Assembly (NCBI RefSeq): GCF_029210385.1
Contig: NZ_JARGDQ010000004.1
Coordinates: 124,001 to 188,000 of the forward strand
Reading direction: 5' to 3'
Source of the DNA: Desulfurivibrio dismutans
GTDB taxonomy: Bacteria > Desulfobacterota > Desulfobulbia > Desulfobulbales > Desulfurivibrionaceae
DNA: 64,000 nucleotides
The translations under genes were made by a program, and so were the position numbers. The notes beneath the pieces are model-generated. The model was given only the letters and a program-made list of their open reading frames with translations, did not search any database and was not told the origin of the DNA. This document shows, in pieces, positions 7,544-61,862 of the stretch (within the stretch, counting starts at the first letter, position 1; each line of letters opens with the position of its first letter).

Positions 7544-7653
7544 GAACAACGTGCAGGAGTGCCGCAGGTTCGGGCAAGCGGCCCGGTGCCGCGTACCCTG
7601 GGTACGTAAACCGGGCCGATTGTCCAAAGATGCGGTGCTCCTGCCCGTTGTTC
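7544..7653. repeat. Palindromic element B (110 bp) between resB and resC
   Basis: Outer arms GAACAACG and CGTTGTTC pair perfectly, followed by GCAGGAGTGCCGCA with TGCGGTGCTCCTGC. The core is typical of the family (GCCGCGTAC, short loop, GTACG). The right end touches the TAA stop of resB (7654-7656 on the plus strand reads TTA). This copy is the only one lying inside an apparent operon whose two products work together. Confidence 0.8.
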
Positions 7654-13438: not shown

Positions 13439-13546
13439 GTAATCGTTCAGCAGTGCCGCAGGTTCGGGCAAGCAGCTGGGCGCCGCGTACCCCGTGTACG
13501 TAAGCCCGGCTGATCGCCCGAAGATGCGGTGCTGCTGAACGATTAC
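13439..13546. repeat. Palindromic element C (108 bp)
   Basis: Arms GTAATCGTTCAGCAG and CTGCTGAACGATTAC are perfectly complementary, and pairing continues through GTGCCGCA/TGCGGTGC and CGGGC/GCCCG. The centre reads CCGCGTAC, a short loop, GTACG. The right end contains the TAA stop codon of ispG (TTA at 13543-13545). It sits between ispG and proS, both on the minus strand. Confidence 0.85.
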
Positions 13547-19136: not shown

Positions 19137-19244
19137 ATAACTATTCAGCCGTGCCCCATATTGCGGTAAGCAGGTCGGCGTAGCGTACATCAGGTACTCA
19201 AGCCGACCTGATCGCCGCAAGATGGGGTGCTGCTGGATAGTTAC
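19137..19244. repeat. Palindromic element D (108 bp) with a tandem extra arm
   Basis: Arms ATAACTATTCAGC and GCTGGATAGTTAC pair with two mismatches or G-T pairs. The core GCGGTAAGCAGGTCGGC / GCCGACCTGATCGCCGC pairs around GCGTAC. Just upstream, at 19112-19127, stands a separate arm-like sequence GTAACTATCCAGCTCA, which would be an even better partner for the right arm and which recurs exactly at 39398-39413. The element lies between the divergent perR and DUF2065 genes. Confidence 0.75.
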
Positions 19245-26043: not shown

Positions 26044-26087
26044 CCGGCAATGGCCGAAGCAATAAATATTTATTTCAGGAGTTGCCT

Positions 26088-29000
26088 GTGTCTACCGATA
26101 GTGAACGGCCCCGGCCGGTACTGCTTGCCGAGTACCGGCCGCCCTTTTTTCTGGTTGATGAGATCAAGCTGCAAGTTGATCTTTATGACGATCATGCCTT
26201 GGTGCGTGCATCATTGCGCTTGCGCCGAAATCCGGCGGCGGCGTCCGGTGAGGCCAACCTGGCGCTGGAGGGTGAAGAGTTGGAACTGCTGGAGTTGCGG
26301 CTGGACGGCGCCGAGTTGCCGCCAGAGCGGTATCTGGTGCAGGGAGACGGCAATCGTGATTTAACCGGACGCGCTTCCGTTGTCGGGGTAGAAGAGGGTT
26401 CCGCCCCAACAGCTGACCCCGGGGCCGCCGCCGGGGGGACAGATGACAACCGGGGACGGTTGCTGATCCTCGCTCCCCCGGAACAGTGCACCCTGGAAAC
26501 GGTAAGCCGCATCTATCCCGCCGCCAACACCGCCCTGGAGGGCCTGTACCGTTCCGGGCCGATGTTCTGCACCCAATGCGAGCCGGAGGGCTTCCGCCGC
26601 ATCACCTGGTACCCCGACCGGCCCGATGTCTCGGCCCCCTTCACGGTGACCATCAGCGCCGATAAGCAACAGTGCCCGGTGCTGCTGGCCGGGGGCAACC
26701 CCGCCGGCCAAGGTGAATGGCCGAACGGTCGCCACTGGGCCTCCTTCAAAGATCCCTTTCCCAAGCCCTCCTACCTTTTTGCTTTGGTGGCCGGCGATCT
26801 GGTGGGTATTCACGACCACTTCACCACCGCCTCGGGCCGGGAGGTGGCCCTGGCCATTTATGTGGAGGCCCACAACCGGGAACAGTGCAAGCATGCCATG
26901 GCGGCGCTGCAAAAGGCCATGCGCTGGGACGAGGAGACCTTCGGCCTGGAATATGATCTTGACCACTACCTGATTGTGGCGGTGGACGACTTCACCATGG
27001 GGGCCATGGAAAACAAGGGGCTCAACATCTTCAACGCCCGCTATGTCCTGGCCCGGCCGGAAAGCGCCACCGACGACGATTTTGAAAACATCGAGGCGGT
27101 GATCGCCCACGAATATTTCCATAACTGGACCGGCAACCGGGTCACCTGCCGGGACTGGTTTCAGTTGAGCCTCAAGGAAGGGCTCACCGTCTTCCGGGAC
27201 CAGCTCTTCAGCCAGCACCTGCACTCGCCGGGGGTCAAGCGGATCAACGACGTGCGGCTGCTGCGGGAGCATCAGTTCGCCGAAGATGCCGGGCCGCTGG
27301 CCCATCCGGTGCGGCCGGAATCGTACCTTGAGATCAACAACTTTTATACCCTCACCGTCTATGAAAAGGGCGCCGAGCTGGTGCGGATGCTCCACACCCT
27401 GCTGGGGCCGGAAAAATTCCGGGTCGGTCTGCGCCTTTATCTTACGCGCCACGACGGCGGGGCGGCCACCATCGAGGATTTTTTGGCCGCCATGGCCGAG
27501 GCCGGCGGCCGCGACCTGGCCGGTTTTGCCCGCTGGTACGCTCGGGCTGGAACGCCGGTGCTCCAGGTTACCGATGATTACGATCCGGTCGGCGGCCGTT
27601 ACCGGCTGCGGCTAAGCCAGCAGGCCGGTGCGCCGATCTCCGGCAAAGGCCAGGGTATTGGTTATGGCAACGGGGTGGGGGCCGCAAACCCCGTCGAAGT
27701 CGCACTTGGACGGGGGGCGCAAAACCCGGTAGCGACGGGTTCGCCGGCGGCCGGGCGCATGGACGCGCAGGAGGCCGCTGGCGCCTCGGAGGCCGGCAGG
27801 ATGCCGGCCGAGAATGAGTCGCTACCGGGTTTTGCGCCCCCCACCCCGGTGCCAAAGCCAACATCTTTGGCAGGGGCCTCCGCGCCGGCCGGCCATGACC
27901 AATACCGGCCGGCGGCGGCACCGTTGTTGATCCCCGTGGCCTTCGGGCTGCTGGAACCGGCGGGCGGGGAGGTGGCCGCCGGTTTGCTGGAACTGGTCGA
28001 TCATGAGCGGGAATTCGTCTTCGACGGTCTGGCCGCCCGGCCGGTCCCCTCGTTGCTGCGCGGTTTTTCGGCCCCGGTGCGACTGGCGTATGACTACCGT
28101 GAGGAGCAGTTGCGCCTGCTGCTGGCCCATGACTCCGACCCCTTCTGTCGCTGGGAGGCAGGTCAGCGGTTAAGCGGCGGCCTGATCCTGGAGCTGGCCC
28201 GTAAGTGGCGGGCCGGGGAAGAGCAGTCGCTGCCGGCGGCCTTTGTCGACACCTACCGGCAACTGTTGGCCCGGCTGCCGGCCCTGGAGGATAAATCCCT
28301 GGCCGCCCAACTGCCGGCCCTGCCGGCCGAGGATTACCTGGCCGAGCAGATGGCACAAATCGATGTCGAGGCGCTGCATGCCGCCCGCGAGTTGGTGCGC
28401 CGGGAGCTGGCCGTCGCCCTGCGGTCGGAGTGGATGGAGCTTTATCACCATAGCCGGGAGGAGGCCGCAGCCCTTGCGACCGGGGCCAAAGACGGCGGCT
28501 CCCTGTACAATCCCCGCCAGGCCGGCTGCCGGCGCCTGCAAAATCTGGCCCTCTCCTTTCTGCTGGCCCTGGATGAAGCCGAAGTGGTCGCCCTGGCCCG
28601 GAGCCAGTTCATTCAAGCCGACAACATGACCGACACCCTGGCCGCCATGCGGGGCCTGGTCCATGCCGCGGCCCTGGCGCAAAACCCGATAATTGCCGGC
28701 CGGCCGGTGACCGGCGCCGGGCCGGTGGCCCAGGTCGCAGTCTCAGAAACTCGGGCCGTTAATGATCCGGGCAATGATGCTCCCAGCGGCGATGTTACGG
28801 GCCGCGATGATTCTGCTTCAGCCACTGCCGCCGCCCGGGAGGTGCTGGCGGAATTTGCCGCCCGCTGGCGGCATGATCACTTGGTGCTGGACAAGTGGTT
28901 CAGTGTTCAGGCCACCGCCCCGGCTCCGGTGACCCTGGAGCAGGTGAAGGCGCTAATGGATCATCCGGCCTTTCGCCTGGCCAATCCCAACCGGGTGCGG

Positions 29001-29279
29001 GCCCTGATCGGGGCCTTTGCCGCCGGCAATGCGCCGGCCTTCCACCGGGCCGACGGCGCCGGGTACCGTTTCCTGACCGAACAGATTCTGGCTCTTGATC
29101 CACTCAATCCCCAGGTTGCCGCCCGGCTGGCGGCCCGTTTCAGCCGTTGGCGGCGCTACGACCCGGCCCGCCAGGCACTGATGCGCGCCGAGCTGAGCAA
29201 AATAGCCGCCGCCCCCAAGCTCTCCCGCGATGTCTACGAAATGGTCAGCAAGAGCCTGGGCCAACCGGATGCCAGCTGA
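26088..29279 (+). CDS. pepN: Aminopeptidase N with internal insertions
   Basis: A 1063-residue M1 zinc aminopeptidase, against about 870 in E. coli. GAMENKG (about 305), HEYFHNWTGNR (zinc ligands from 341) and LKEGLTVFRDQ are intact, so it should be active in the cytosol. The start is GTG 26088 because AGGAG lies just upstream; a TTG at 26082 would abut that site. Two low-complexity insertions account for much of the extra length: about residues 524-592, which contains a perfect 25-bp DNA inverted repeat, and about 865-915 (AQNPIIAGRPVTGAGPVAQV and following). Both begin close to a GCGCAAAACCCG sequence. The insertions lie after the catalytic domain, so they may be tolerated. Confidence 0.92.
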   Translation: MSTDSERPRPVLLAEYRPPFFLVDEIKLQVDLYDDHALVRASLRLRRNPAAASGEANLALEGEELELLELRLDGAELPPERYLVQGDGNRDLTGRASVVGVEEGSAPTADPGAAAGGTDDNRGRLLILAPPEQCTLETVSRIYPAANTALEGLYRSGPMFCTQCEPEGFRRITWYPDRPDVSAPFTVTISADKQQCPVLLAGGNPAGQGEWPNGRHWASFKDPFPKPSYLFALVAGDLVGIHDHFTTASGREVALAIYVEAHNREQCKHAMAALQKAMRWDEETFGLEYDLDHYLIVAVDDFTMGAMENKGLNIFNARYVLARPESATDDDFENIEAVIAHEYFHNWTGNRVTCRDWFQLSLKEGLTVFRDQLFSQHLHSPGVKRINDVRLLREHQFAEDAGPLAHPVRPESYLEINNFYTLTVYEKGAELVRMLHTLLGPEKFRVGLRLYLTRHDGGAATIEDFLAAMAEAGGRDLAGFARWYARAGTPVLQVTDDYDPVGGRYRLRLSQQAGAPISGKGQGIGYGNGVGAANPVEVALGRGAQNPVATGSPAAGRMDAQEAAGASEAGRMPAENESLPGFAPPTPVPKPTSLAGASAPAGHDQYRPAAAPLLIPVAFGLLEPAGGEVAAGLLELVDHEREFVFDGLAARPVPSLLRGFSAPVRLAYDYREEQLRLLLAHDSDPFCRWEAGQRLSGGLILELARKWRAGEEQSLPAAFVDTYRQLLARLPALEDKSLAAQLPALPAEDYLAEQMAQIDVEALHAARELVRRELAVALRSEWMELYHHSREEAAALATGAKDGGSLYNPRQAGCRRLQNLALSFLLALDEAEVVALARSQFIQADNMTDTLAAMRGLVHAAALAQNPIIAGRPVTGAGPVAQVAVSETRAVNDPGNDAPSGDVTGRDDSASATAAAREVLAEFAARWRHDHLVLDKWFSVQATAPAPVTLEQVKALMDHPAFRLANPNRVRALIGAFAAGNAPAFHRADGAGYRFLTEQILALDPLNPQVAARLAARFSRWRRYDPARQALMRAELSKIAAAPKLSRDVYEMVSKSLGQPDAS
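27712..27842. repeat. Perfect 25-bp inverted repeat inside the pepN reading frame
   Basis: The left arm (27712-27736, core CGCAAAACCCGGTAGCGAC) and right arm (27818-27842, core GTCGCTACCGGGTTTTGCG) are perfectly complementary over 25 bp with an 81-bp GC-rich spacer. A second, imperfect pair lies outside it (27659-27681 with 27837-27862, both built on CGGGGTGGGGG). The frame stays open through the whole element, encoding a Gly/Ala/Pro-rich stretch absent from ordinary PepN. It looks like an inserted palindromic element. Confidence 0.85.
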
Positions 29280-29466: not shown

Positions 29467-29517
29467 CGTTCACCAGGGGCGCTAACCTACTGATTTAACA
29501 GGCTGTAAACGTTCAGC
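29467..29517 (+). repeat. 51-bp repeat R2, with flanking 21-bp direct repeats
   Basis: Relative of 3823-3873 with the same length and shared ends; it runs into the left arm of element E. In addition, a 21-bp direct repeat (core CTGAACGTTTACGCAAAATG) stands at 29442-29462 and 29601-29621, the second copy being the right arm of element E plus its flank. The pepN-efp gap (29280-29633) is otherwise empty of genes. Confidence 0.65.
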
Positions 29518-29612
29518 CGTGCCCCAGATTCGGGCAAGCAGCCAAGCGCCGCGTACCCCGTGTACGTAAGCTTGGCTGATCGCCCGAAGGTGGGGTGCGG
29601 CTGAACGTTTAC
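29505..29612. repeat. Palindromic element E (108 bp) in the efp leader
   Basis: Arms GTAAACGTTCAGCCG and CGGCTGAACGTTTAC pair perfectly, continuing through GTGCCCC/GGGGTG and CGGGC/GCCCG, with the centre CGCGTAC and GTACG. The element ends seven bases before the GGAG of efp, so in a transcript starting upstream the hairpin would lie in the leader beside the ribosome site. Confidence 0.85.
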
Positions 29613-32095: not shown

Positions 32096-32151
32096 GATAC
32101 CCTCCGCTAAGTTTGTTCTCTTAAGATCATCAACCTGCAGTTGGTCGAGGA

Positions 32152-32258
32152 GTAACTGAACAGCCGTGCCCCAGGTTGCGGCAAGCGGCCCGGCGCCGCG
32201 TACTCAGGTACGCAAGCCGGGCCGATCGCCGCAAAATGGGGTGCTGCTGGACAGTTAC
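32152..32258. repeat. Palindromic element F (107 bp)
   Basis: Arms GTAACTGAACAGC and GCTGGACAGTTAC pair with one mismatch, then GTGCCCC/GGGGTGC, GCGGC/GCCGC and GCCCGGC/GCCGGGC around GCGTAC-TCAG-GTACGC. The last base of the element is the first base of the transporter's stop triplet (CTA on the plus strand, 32258-32260). Confidence 0.85.
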
Positions 32259-36938: not shown

Positions 36939-38348
36939 ATGGCAGCCAGTTTGCTGATTATCGATGATGAAACCGACCTGCTGGAGGCCCTGGCTCGGAT
37001 TCTGCCCGAGGAACTGGCCGAGGTGGAGGTGGCAACCACCAGTGAAGCCGCCGCCGGGCTGGAACTGATCCGGGAGCAGAGCATCGACGTGCTGCTGCTG
37101 GATATCCGGATGCCGGAGGTCAGCGGCCTGGATCTGCTGACCGAGGTGAAAAAGATCGACCCCTGGGTGACGGTGGTGATGATGACCGCTTACGGCGGCA
37201 TTGAAACGGCGGTGACGGCGGTCAAGCGCGGCGCCTACGATTTCATCACCAAGCCCTTTGAGATTCCAGATCTGGTCAGGGTTTTGCTGCAAGCCCTGGA
37301 GCGCAGCCGCCTGATCCGGGAAAACATGAACCTGCGCCAGCAGTTGCCGGAGCAGGCCGGCTTTGCCGGTTTAATCGGCCAGTCCCCGCGGATGCGCAAG
37401 CTTTATGAGGGTGTCCAGGCCCTGGCCAATACCGATTACAGTGTGCTGATTAGGGGGGAGTCCGGTACCGGCAAGGAACTGGTGGCCCGGGCCATTCATC
37501 AACTGAGCAAGCGTGGCCAGCGTCCCATGGTCACCGTCAACTGCCCGGCGATCCCCGAGCACCTGTTGGAAAGCGAGTTGTTCGGTCACAAGAAAGGGTC
37601 CTTTACCGGGGCGGAAAAGGACCATGCCGGCCTGTTTCTGGAGGCCGACGGCTCCACCCTGCTGCTGGATGAAATCGGCGATATTCCGGTGAGCGTGCAG
37701 ACCAAACTGTTGCGGGCCCTGCAGGAACGGGAGATCCGCCCGGTGGGCGGCGATAAGCCCCGCAAGATCAATGTTCGCATCATCTCCAGCACCAACCAGG
37801 ATTTGGAAACCAAGATCAAGGAGCACAGCTTCCGGGAAGATCTCTATTATCGCCTCAATGTGGTTACCCTGCACACGCCCTCGCTGGCCGAGATTCCCGA
37901 GGATGTGCCGCTGCTGGCCGATTACTGCCTGCGGGCCGTCTGCCGGGAGCTGGAATTACCGCCCAAGGGTTTCAGTGTCGCCGCCCTGCGGGAGATCGCC
38001 CGCCGCAAGTGGCCCGGCAATGTCCGGGAGTTACAGAATTTTGTCCGCCGTATGGTGCTGTTTGCCCCGGACCAGGAGATCGGGCTGGCGGAAATCGGCG
38101 CCGTGGAGGAACAGACGGCGGGTCCGGCCGCGGCCGGTAACGGTGCCGAGGGTCGGCGGTCGGCCATCGAGCCTTATCTGCAGAGTAAGGATGAACTGGT
38201 GGACCGCTTCACCGCCGACTATCTCCAGCAACTGCTGACCATGACCCAGGGTAATGTCACCCAGGCGGCGGGGTTGGCGGTGTTAAGCCGGGTGGCCCTG
38301 CAGAAGATCATCAAGCGGCAGGGTCTGAAATCCGAAAATTTCCGGTAA
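36939..38348 (+). CDS. NtrC-family sigma-54-dependent response regulator
   Basis: The 469-residue regulator has a receiver domain with phosphoacceptor D55 (DVLLLDIRMPE), an AAA+ ATPase (Walker A GESGTGKE near 173; the sigma-54 contact loop reads GSFTGA near 221) and a C-terminal Fis-type helix-turn-helix (GNVTQAAGLAVLSRVALQKIIKRQGL). It is the cognate partner of the haem kinase. The sigma-54 promoter and dyad in the divergent region make usp and the transporter its likely targets. Its TAA stop is supplied by the left arm of element G. Confidence 0.92.
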   Translation: MAASLLIIDDETDLLEALARILPEELAEVEVATTSEAAAGLELIREQSIDVLLLDIRMPEVSGLDLLTEVKKIDPWVTVVMMTAYGGIETAVTAVKRGAYDFITKPFEIPDLVRVLLQALERSRLIRENMNLRQQLPEQAGFAGLIGQSPRMRKLYEGVQALANTDYSVLIRGESGTGKELVARAIHQLSKRGQRPMVTVNCPAIPEHLLESELFGHKKGSFTGAEKDHAGLFLEADGSTLLLDEIGDIPVSVQTKLLRALQEREIRPVGGDKPRKINVRIISSTNQDLETKIKEHSFREDLYYRLNVVTLHTPSLAEIPEDVPLLADYCLRAVCRELELPPKGFSVAALREIARRKWPGNVRELQNFVRRMVLFAPDQEIGLAEIGAVEEQTAGPAAAGNGAEGRRSAIEPYLQSKDELVDRFTADYLQQLLTMTQGNVTQAAGLAVLSRVALQKIIKRQGLKSENFR

Positions 38349-38453
38349 GCGGGCATCAGCACCGCACCTTGCGGCGATAAGCCCGGCTTGCGTCCTGGGG
38401 GTAAGCGGCGTCGGTCTGCTTGCCGCAATCTGTGGCACCGCTGCCCGCTTACC
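38344..38453. repeat. Palindromic element G (110 bp) carrying the stops of both flanking genes
   Basis: Arms GGTAAGCGGGCA and TGCCCGCTTACC are perfect complements. The core is in reverse orientation (GCTTGCG...GCTTGCCGC). TAA at 38346-38348 ends the regulator gene and TTA at 38449-38451 ends the UDG-like gene on the other strand, so both convergent reading frames stop within the arms. Confidence 0.85.
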
Positions 38454-60108: not shown

Positions 60109-60216
60109 GTAAACGTCCAGCAGCACCGCAGCTTGCGGCGATCGGACCGGCTTGCGTACCTGGGGTACGCGGCTCCGGTCCGCTTGCCGCAAGCTGCGGC
60201 ACTGTTGAACGTTTAC
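60109..60216. repeat. Palindromic element H (108 bp) at the sat 3' end
   Basis: Arms GTAAACGTCCAGCAG and CTGTTGAACGTTTAC pair with two G-T or mismatch positions; the next segment CACCGCAGCTTGCGGC pairs with GCCGCAAGCTGCGGCAC nearly throughout. It is in the reverse orientation compared with elements B-F (core GATCGGACCGGCTTGCGTAC). It begins just after the sat TAA and probably ends or stabilises the sat transcript. Confidence 0.85.
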
Positions 60217-60248
60217 TGCGTTGGGTCGTGTTTTTTGGCGGCCCTTAT

Positions 60249-60292: not shown

Positions 60293-60348
60293 ATTGGTGG
60301 TTGGGGGTGAAAAATAGCTGAGCGGGGCTGGGGGGAACGTGGTAATTT

Positions 60349-60446
60349 GCTCTTGGCTCTTGGCTCTTGGCTCTTGGCTCTTGGCTCTTGGCTCTTGGCT
60401 CTTGGCTCTTTGCTCTTTGCTCTTGGCTCTTGGCTCTTGGCACTTG
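60349..60446. repeat. Heptanucleotide tandem repeat, 14 units of GCTCTTG
   Basis: Fourteen consecutive 7-mers; eleven are exactly GCTCTTG, two are GCTCTTT and the last is GCACTTG. It lies in the 460-bp gap between sat and aroB, ending about 120 bp before the aroB ATG. Because 7 is not a multiple of 3, three units encode a seven-residue period on either strand, which gives spurious repeated frames (PRAKSQE on the minus strand). Copy number is likely to vary among strains. Confidence 0.95.
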
Positions 60447-60567
60447 GGTTTGCCAACCCTGGTTGCTTTGTTGGTATTGTCTGTCCGGGCTTGCCCCTTT
60501 GCTGATGGCGGCGGGCTGTCCGCTCGGCAGGGCCTTGGCTTAACAGTTGTCATAAAGGATTATTTGT

Positions 60568-61736: not shown

Positions 61737-61752
61737 GTGGTAACACCACGGG

Positions 61753-61862
61753 GGTAAAGGCGCAGCAGCACCGAAGGTTGCGGCGATCGGCCCGGCGCCG
61801 CGTACATCAGTACGCAAGCCGGGCCGATCGCCGCAAGATGCGGTGCTGCTGTGCCTTTACCC
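61753..61862. repeat. Palindromic element I (110 bp)
   Basis: This is the most perfect copy: 21-base outer arms (GGTAAAGGCGCAGCAGCACC and complement) pair without mismatch. The inner TTGCGGCGATCGGCCCGGC pairs with GCCGGGCCGATCGCCGCAA, and the tip is GCGTAC-ATCA-GTACGC. It has GATCGG on both sides, so it is a near-symmetric hybrid of the two orientations. The TTA at 61857-61859 is the stop codon of the CoA-disulfide reductase gene. Confidence 0.9.

Follow-up and report, generated by a model that had tools for sequence, protein, structure and literature searches.

The window, a 64,000-nucleotide stretch of DNA, contains a pepN gene whose coding sequence carries a palindromic insertion and a second, low-complexity insertion, together with dispersed copies of another palindrome family. 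The features, in window coordinates, are as follows.

26082..29279, + strand: pepN, aminopeptidase N, 1065 aa from the first in-frame start, host gene of the insertion (open reading frame, Pfam/NCBIfam, PDB alignment).
27658..27862, + strand: inserted element, ~205 bp as far as delimitable, with worn ends (inverted repeats, family comparison, orthologues without the segment).
27658..27693, − strand: additional, inverted partial copy of the right end of the element, at its left side (36-nt, 86% inverted repeat with 27826-27861; similar to the right end of other copies).
27712..27736, + strand: 5' arm of the long stem P1, perfect over 25 bp (sequence; covarying helix 1).
27737..27817, + strand: conserved core, a three-way junction with two hairpin arms and the junction letters CGGGTT and AATGAG (family alignment, fold).
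27759..27764, + strand: first core hairpin loop, ATGGAC (sequence; hairpin with GGA in 77 of 86 distinct rows of the family alignment).
27798..27802, + strand: second core hairpin loop, AGGAT (sequence; hairpin with GGA in 73 of 86 distinct rows).
27818..27842, + strand: 3' arm of the long stem P1 (sequence, inverted repeats, covariation).
28666..28830, + strand: second pepN insertion, ~50 low-complexity residues, not recognisably related to the element (orthologue alignment, AlphaFold).
7545-7652, 13439-13546, 19137-19244, 29505-29612, 32149-32258, 38345-38452, 60109-60219 and 61752-61862: copies of the second palindrome family.

The pepN product is recognised as a full PepN (1133.7 bits against TIGR02414), and its reading frame runs through the palindrome. 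The first-pass annotation had described perfect 25-bp inverted repeats and an outer imperfect pair within an open frame, and all of these are present as claimed: the arms at 27712-27736 and 27818-27842 are exact, the outer pair (27658-27693/27826-27861) matches at 86% over 36 nt, and a single open reading frame of 1065 aa extends over 26082-29279. A 50-nt, 80% inverted pair surrounds the perfect arms. RNA folding of 27690-27870 gives -122.1 kcal/mol, compared with -85.4 +/- 4.5 for 200 shuffles, and the segment folds better than shuffled sequence on both strands (z -8.1 and -8.3, the former for the energy given).

Alignment to the PDB places the segment where E. coli PepN passes from residue 492 to 522 and the query from 517 to 627. 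It was found in its own gene only, and none of the 29 other PepN orthologues in the alignment has it, among them three congeneric ones (G001, G002 and G004); it was therefore inserted; these loci came from 37 other genomes searched, the eight that gave no aligned locus being G003, G015, G022, G026, G027, G028, G030 and G032. The comparison of sister-strain pepN and of distant PepN, both named earlier as checks, thus went the way of an insertion, since neither the congeners, the remaining aligned orthologues nor E. coli PepN contain the segment. Linkers at this place are longer in the congeners than in the other families, though they too lack the segment. Wear at the ends of the pepN copy, and an inverted piece of a right end at its left side, make its exact borders and target duplication unreadable. 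In the structural model (AlphaFold, 27 PepN sequences, mean pLDDT 76.5), residues 518-610 have a pLDDT of about 20-40 and lie between two strands of what is otherwise the enzyme fold, and the added residues are predicted to form a disordered loop. Further stretches of low pLDDT are residues 91-121, 399-422 and the ends; the first of these corresponds to another low-complexity stretch (window 26352-26444, residues ~91-121), which is expanded in G001 and G004 too and is predicted to be disordered.

The second pepN insertion (residues 874-906) is likewise of low pLDDT and lies between helices. It had been suggested to start with the same sequence as the palindromic element, and GCGCAAAACCCG is indeed shared at 28677 (16 nt, 94%); a link to the element is not supported, as this amounts to just one additional 13-mer in 64 kb, which is weak, and the second insertion had no convincing match among the collected loci, the set compared. 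At the position of this insertion, the pepN of congener G002 (L101) carries an in-frame repeat of the other palindrome family. That family has GTAAACGTTCAGC-like ends and is unlike the pepN element in sequence; the claim that the pepN palindrome is unrelated to the window's other palindromes agrees with our comparison, in which no sequence relation was seen. The window also holds a tandem array of the 7-bp unit TTGGCTC at 60332-60450.

Copies of the pepN element are dispersed through its own genome. BLAST with the segment gave 61 matches at E<=1 (self and opposite-strand matches counted), the long ones covering 134-179 bp at 73-88% identity, with shorter ones besides. A genome search with the arm, which had been proposed at the outset, returned nine matches to a 22-nt piece (<=3 mismatches), two of them the pepN arms themselves, and none for the reversed control. 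Using a covariance model built from 22 copies, with 150 candidates scored, we obtained 40 matches at E<=0.1 in this 2.84-Mb genome; nine rows were opposite-strand duplicates, leaving 31 distinct places (pepN copy included), 29 of which were used further. These copies bear on the view that the segment is a native, fast-evolving PepN linker turned palindromic by chance or template switching, with no insertion. Congeners too have longer linkers here than other families, and template switching is described in the excerpt available as able to make hairpins (PMC8794818), but other copies in the genome match the segment at up to 88% identity over 143-163 bp, and we consider a native origin extremely improbable.

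Nine of 38 genomes (the own genome included; 83 candidates scored per genome) have matches to the covariance model at E<=0.01. The richest is congener G002 (one contig, 3,097,763 bp), where 55 matches, less 16 opposite-strand duplicates, correspond to 39 distinct copies, all used, giving 68 copies for the two genomes together. A second covariance model detected the family in seven of 297 genomes drawn from the phylum (own genome and G002 included), a lower bound given stricter filters and 10 scored candidates per genome, and the matches fall in three families besides its own. An exact core pattern matched three contigs in a genome-contig collection that may omit records close to the own genome, two belonging to one Nitrospinota MAG and one to an unclassified MAG; the arms of the MAG copies differ in letters yet pair. 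The core was found on two or more distinct terminal backbones here, and the Nitrospinota MAG has it with yet other arms. In the unclassified MAG (L167:4187-4400), the core is framed by GTAACTATTCAG...CTGAATAGTTAC ends reminiscent of the other palindrome family of the window. A literature search of open-licence PMC found no published description of the pepN element family.

Element ends were found in 12 of the 68 copies. Five complete copies measure 197-235 bp, and the best preserved have terminal inverted repeats (CAGGGCAACGTCAAAGTC...), with G002 copies ending in CAGGGCAACGTCAAAGTC and GACTTTGACG...CCCTG, or close to that. Flanking direct repeats agree at 10/10, 10/10 and 9/10 letters in three copies and at 8/9 and 7/10 in two more, counts that stand without a shuffled control; the remaining seven of the twelve have no convincing duplication. 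The copy in HypF of G002 has inverted ends and comprises 197 bp, which with a 10-bp duplication makes 207 bp, or 69 codons, and HypF is free of the element in G000, G001 and G004, the three other genomes with readable HypF. Target duplications and empty sites together indicate that the element is mobile. Like a MITE, it is short, has no transposase gene of its own, occurs in many dispersed copies and has terminal inverted repeats with a duplication, the latter clear in three and weaker in two of the twelve copies and unreadable in pepN. Element ends away from known copies occur in 12 places (11 stretches), mostly as short core-deleted derivatives, and no transposase was noticed within the ~330 bp read beyond each end. 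These derivatives (L181-L191) keep the ends of the element and have lost the core, L183 consisting of two facing ends 64 bp apart; they are probably palindrome deletions.

Insertion sequences of the ISAs1 family have CAGGG ends and generate duplications of 8-10 bp, and the element shares the CAGGG ends and has a 10-bp duplication. An origin as an ISAs1-derived MITE was rejected, and the element is not filed as an ISAs1 member, because an ISAs1-family transposase was found in none of 23 genomes of the same and related organisms. A REP-type repeat moved by a RAYT/Y1 transposase was also considered, as GTAG and GGAG letters adjoin the hairpins and the genome has three Y1 transposase genes. However, no such palindrome lies within ~1.5 kb of any of the three, and the copies have 10-bp target duplications, which Y1 transposases are not known to leave; we judge this reading to be improbable. 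REP units are described as 20-40 bp long and linked to tyrosine transposases, and GTAG/CGTC REPs are found within genes such as uvrA of Thioalkalivibrio and Opitutus terrae (PMC3733652, the word 'Desulf' being absent from its main text). The pepN element is similar in that its palindromes are found inside genes of several species, but differs in its target duplications, in the lack of Y1 flanking and in the size of its complete copies, well beyond that of a REP unit.

Copies in frame are not limited to pepN. Ten open reading frames spanning copies, selected for depth on both sides from among the spanning frames, were scanned with Pfam, and eight had a Pfam family (none for L163 and L144), so that with PepN there are nine Pfam-recognised host proteins, seven in the own genome and two in G002. 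In the own genome, a copy lies in frame between the domains of MutL, of CobB/CbiA and of a BcrAD/DUF2229 CoA-enzyme activase, ahead of the domain in a transglutaminase-domain protein and near the C-terminus of a methyltransferase, and a 67-nt fragment falls within the domain match of an AMP-binding enzyme, not in a linker. The G002 copies lie between YrdC and HypF_C in HypF and between the domains of an aldolase_II/SDR fusion. Three of the nine host proteins (CobB, HypF and aldolase/SDR) read the element from the opposite strand. The first-pass reading of the pepN segment as an in-frame inserted element foreign to PepN is supported by these additional in-frame copies, by the dispersed family, by the 29 orthologues that lack the segment and by the target-site duplication in HypF.

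The CobB insert is common to the own genome and G001, at the same place, without gapped codons and open in both. Its 44 codons have one synonymous and seven non-synonymous changes (pN/pS 2.6, compared with 0.27 elsewhere in the protein), which is what an unconstrained linker should show, although the numbers are small. MutL is less clear, with other linkers in G001 and G003 and unreadable rows in G002. Reading frames were counted in 47 of the 68 copies (43 non-genic, 4 genic). The pepN sense frame is open in 21 of the 43 non-genic copies against 19.7 expected, and therefore is not kept for translation; the possibility that it is a built-in reading frame of the element was rejected on the same count. 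Two antisense frames are open above expectation (36 and 37 of 43; expected 27 and 26). The openness of frames reflects composition, conserved letters and survival. If the segment were instead removed before or during translation, by splicing or by ribosome bypassing over the hairpin, PepN would be unaltered, and a very stable fold within a coding region and a three-way junction with conserved letters would suit such a process. Against this, the inserts are in frame and without stops, the CobB insert is open and ungapped in two species, which a removed insert would not need, and no Rfam intron matched the pepN segment or the nine loci scanned; we regard removal as very unlikely. Hammerhead-like and intron-like readings of the junction were dropped on inspection by eye.

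The family folds into a long stem closing two hairpin arms at a three-way junction. Across 86 distinct rows, drawn from the own genome, G002, further relatives and two MAG loci, pairing holds in 97.3% of 4098 pair cells and both partners change in 39 of 49 pairs, in an alignment fitted to the model, which favours structure. Double-change cells number 852 compared with 211.8 +/- 12.2 in shuffled data, and slid controls are 32-51% paired; an unfitted MAFFT alignment of 22 copies has kept double changes in 31 of 49 pairs. Letters in and around the junction are near-invariant, with GGA in both core hairpins in 72 of the 86 rows, and P1 is the opposite: among 56 P1 arm pairs that passed a cut-off of 18 Watson-Crick pairs out of 25, the median identity between left arms is 0.44, although 17 pairs are perfect over 25 bp. 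In 53 nearest-copy pairs whose cores agree at 90% or more, two-sided changes affect 204 P1 columns and one-sided changes 73. Adjacent P1 double changes number 92 (shuffled 59.6 +/- 4.6, largest 73), a comparison that is not a formal test since copies share ancestry. The orthologous intergenic pair G000 C33:27684 / G002 2724320 has a block change in both arms with P2 and P3 nearly unchanged. Template switching between inverted repeats would give block changes on both arms, going by the excerpts of PMC8794818 and PMC8604942, and the changes in P1 match the pattern expected of such a process. A mosaic locus in G001 (L085) was considered as a case of arm conversion and dropped because its left side has no match to the activase gene, so that it may be an assembly chimera.

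A different interpretation sees in the core a functional structured RNA (a CsrA-binding or 3'-UTR element, for instance) that travels on mobile DNA and owes its conservation to selection on the RNA rather than to selfish spread, the copies in genes being accidental. The nearly invariant junction letters and the paired GGA hairpins would fit, as would an excess of G.U over A.C in P1 (54 versus 12; without the model 35 versus 13 distinct events, p 0.002), which points to sense RNA and is a sign of selection on it or of mutational bias. Two intergenic copies have been retained at orthologous positions in the two species, and the gene upstream runs in the same direction as the element in 40 of 59 copies (of the 68), a weak bias from crude ORF calls. 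However, the second core hairpin has no G.U excess (7 versus 9), mobility is evident from the duplications and empty sites, and Rfam cmscan, with the TwoAYGGAY model included, returned no match at E<=1 in window 27400-28900, nor at E<=5 in the nine loci. CsrA is encoded in 17 of 18 genomes but equally in G004, G006, G007, G009 and G014, where no element copy was found, and its presence therefore does not discriminate. One copy kept at an orthologous place in G002 has csrA ~4 kb away in both genomes. We consider a functional RNA core unlikely as the main explanation. More doubtful still is a mobile CsrA-type RNA module, in which a two-hairpin core with GGA loops on a rigid stem drifting by template switching would spread as DNA, regulate as RNA in 3' regions and serve as a source of disordered linkers. 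TwoAYGGAY RNA (Rfam RF01731) is described in an excerpt as a pair of GGA-loop hairpins with proposed CsrA binding (PMC4333381); the element core also consists of two hairpins with GGA, but the pepN element is mobile.

Taken together, the pepN palindrome is, with high probability, a real, mobile and structured repeat inserted in frame, namely a non-autonomous, MITE-like palindromic element of ~150-240 bp. ERIC, Correia/NEMIS and YPAL are described as non-autonomous MITEs of ~100-200 bp with long hairpin transcripts and occasional in-frame fusion (PMC2229807), and the element resembles them by description, not by sequence, in being non-autonomous, similar in size, hairpin-forming and fused in frame; the passages of that review consulted make no mention of a conserved core flanked by variable but complementary arms. 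Rickettsia palindromic elements (RPE; Ogata et al. 2000, 2002, via reviews) are dispersed palindromic repeats of 100-150 bp, partly within unrelated protein genes with the frame unbroken (PMC2229807, PMC3767692, PMC10969869), and such in-frame insertions are unusually frequent in Rickettsia (PMC10969869); for their target duplication, PMC2229807 gives the entry 'unknown'. The likeness to Rickettsia drawn in the first-pass annotation holds for behaviour, since the pepN element also consists of dispersed palindromes inserted in frame into unrelated protein genes, and by this analogy it behaves like an RPE; the likeness carries no claim of family membership. Unlike RPE, it comes from different bacteria, has 10-bp target duplications and a conserved three-way-junction core, and its stem arms differ between copies yet stay complementary.

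We propose that the element is moved by a transposase and that insertions within genes would survive if they are a multiple of three bases and free of stops, chiefly where they fall in a loop or domain linker. Ribosomes would read through the unfolded hairpin, producing a PepN with ~70 extra disordered residues. Stem pairing most likely persists despite fast letter change through template switching in replication, which would rewrite either arm from its partner; some selection on the folded RNA may also contribute.

The in-frame copies across several genes suggest that selfish repeats may thus add new stretches to working proteins. Insertion of this Rickettsia-like kind is now seen in the genus of the sulfidogen Desulfurivibrio, together with empty congener sites and target duplications. 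The cultured congener G002, presumably Desulfurivibrio alkaliphilus AHT2, carries the HypF copy, so that translation and tolerance of inserts are directly testable. The P1 stem, which changes in blocks on both arms with pairing kept, offers a natural setting in which to test template switching as an origin of 'compensatory' changes.
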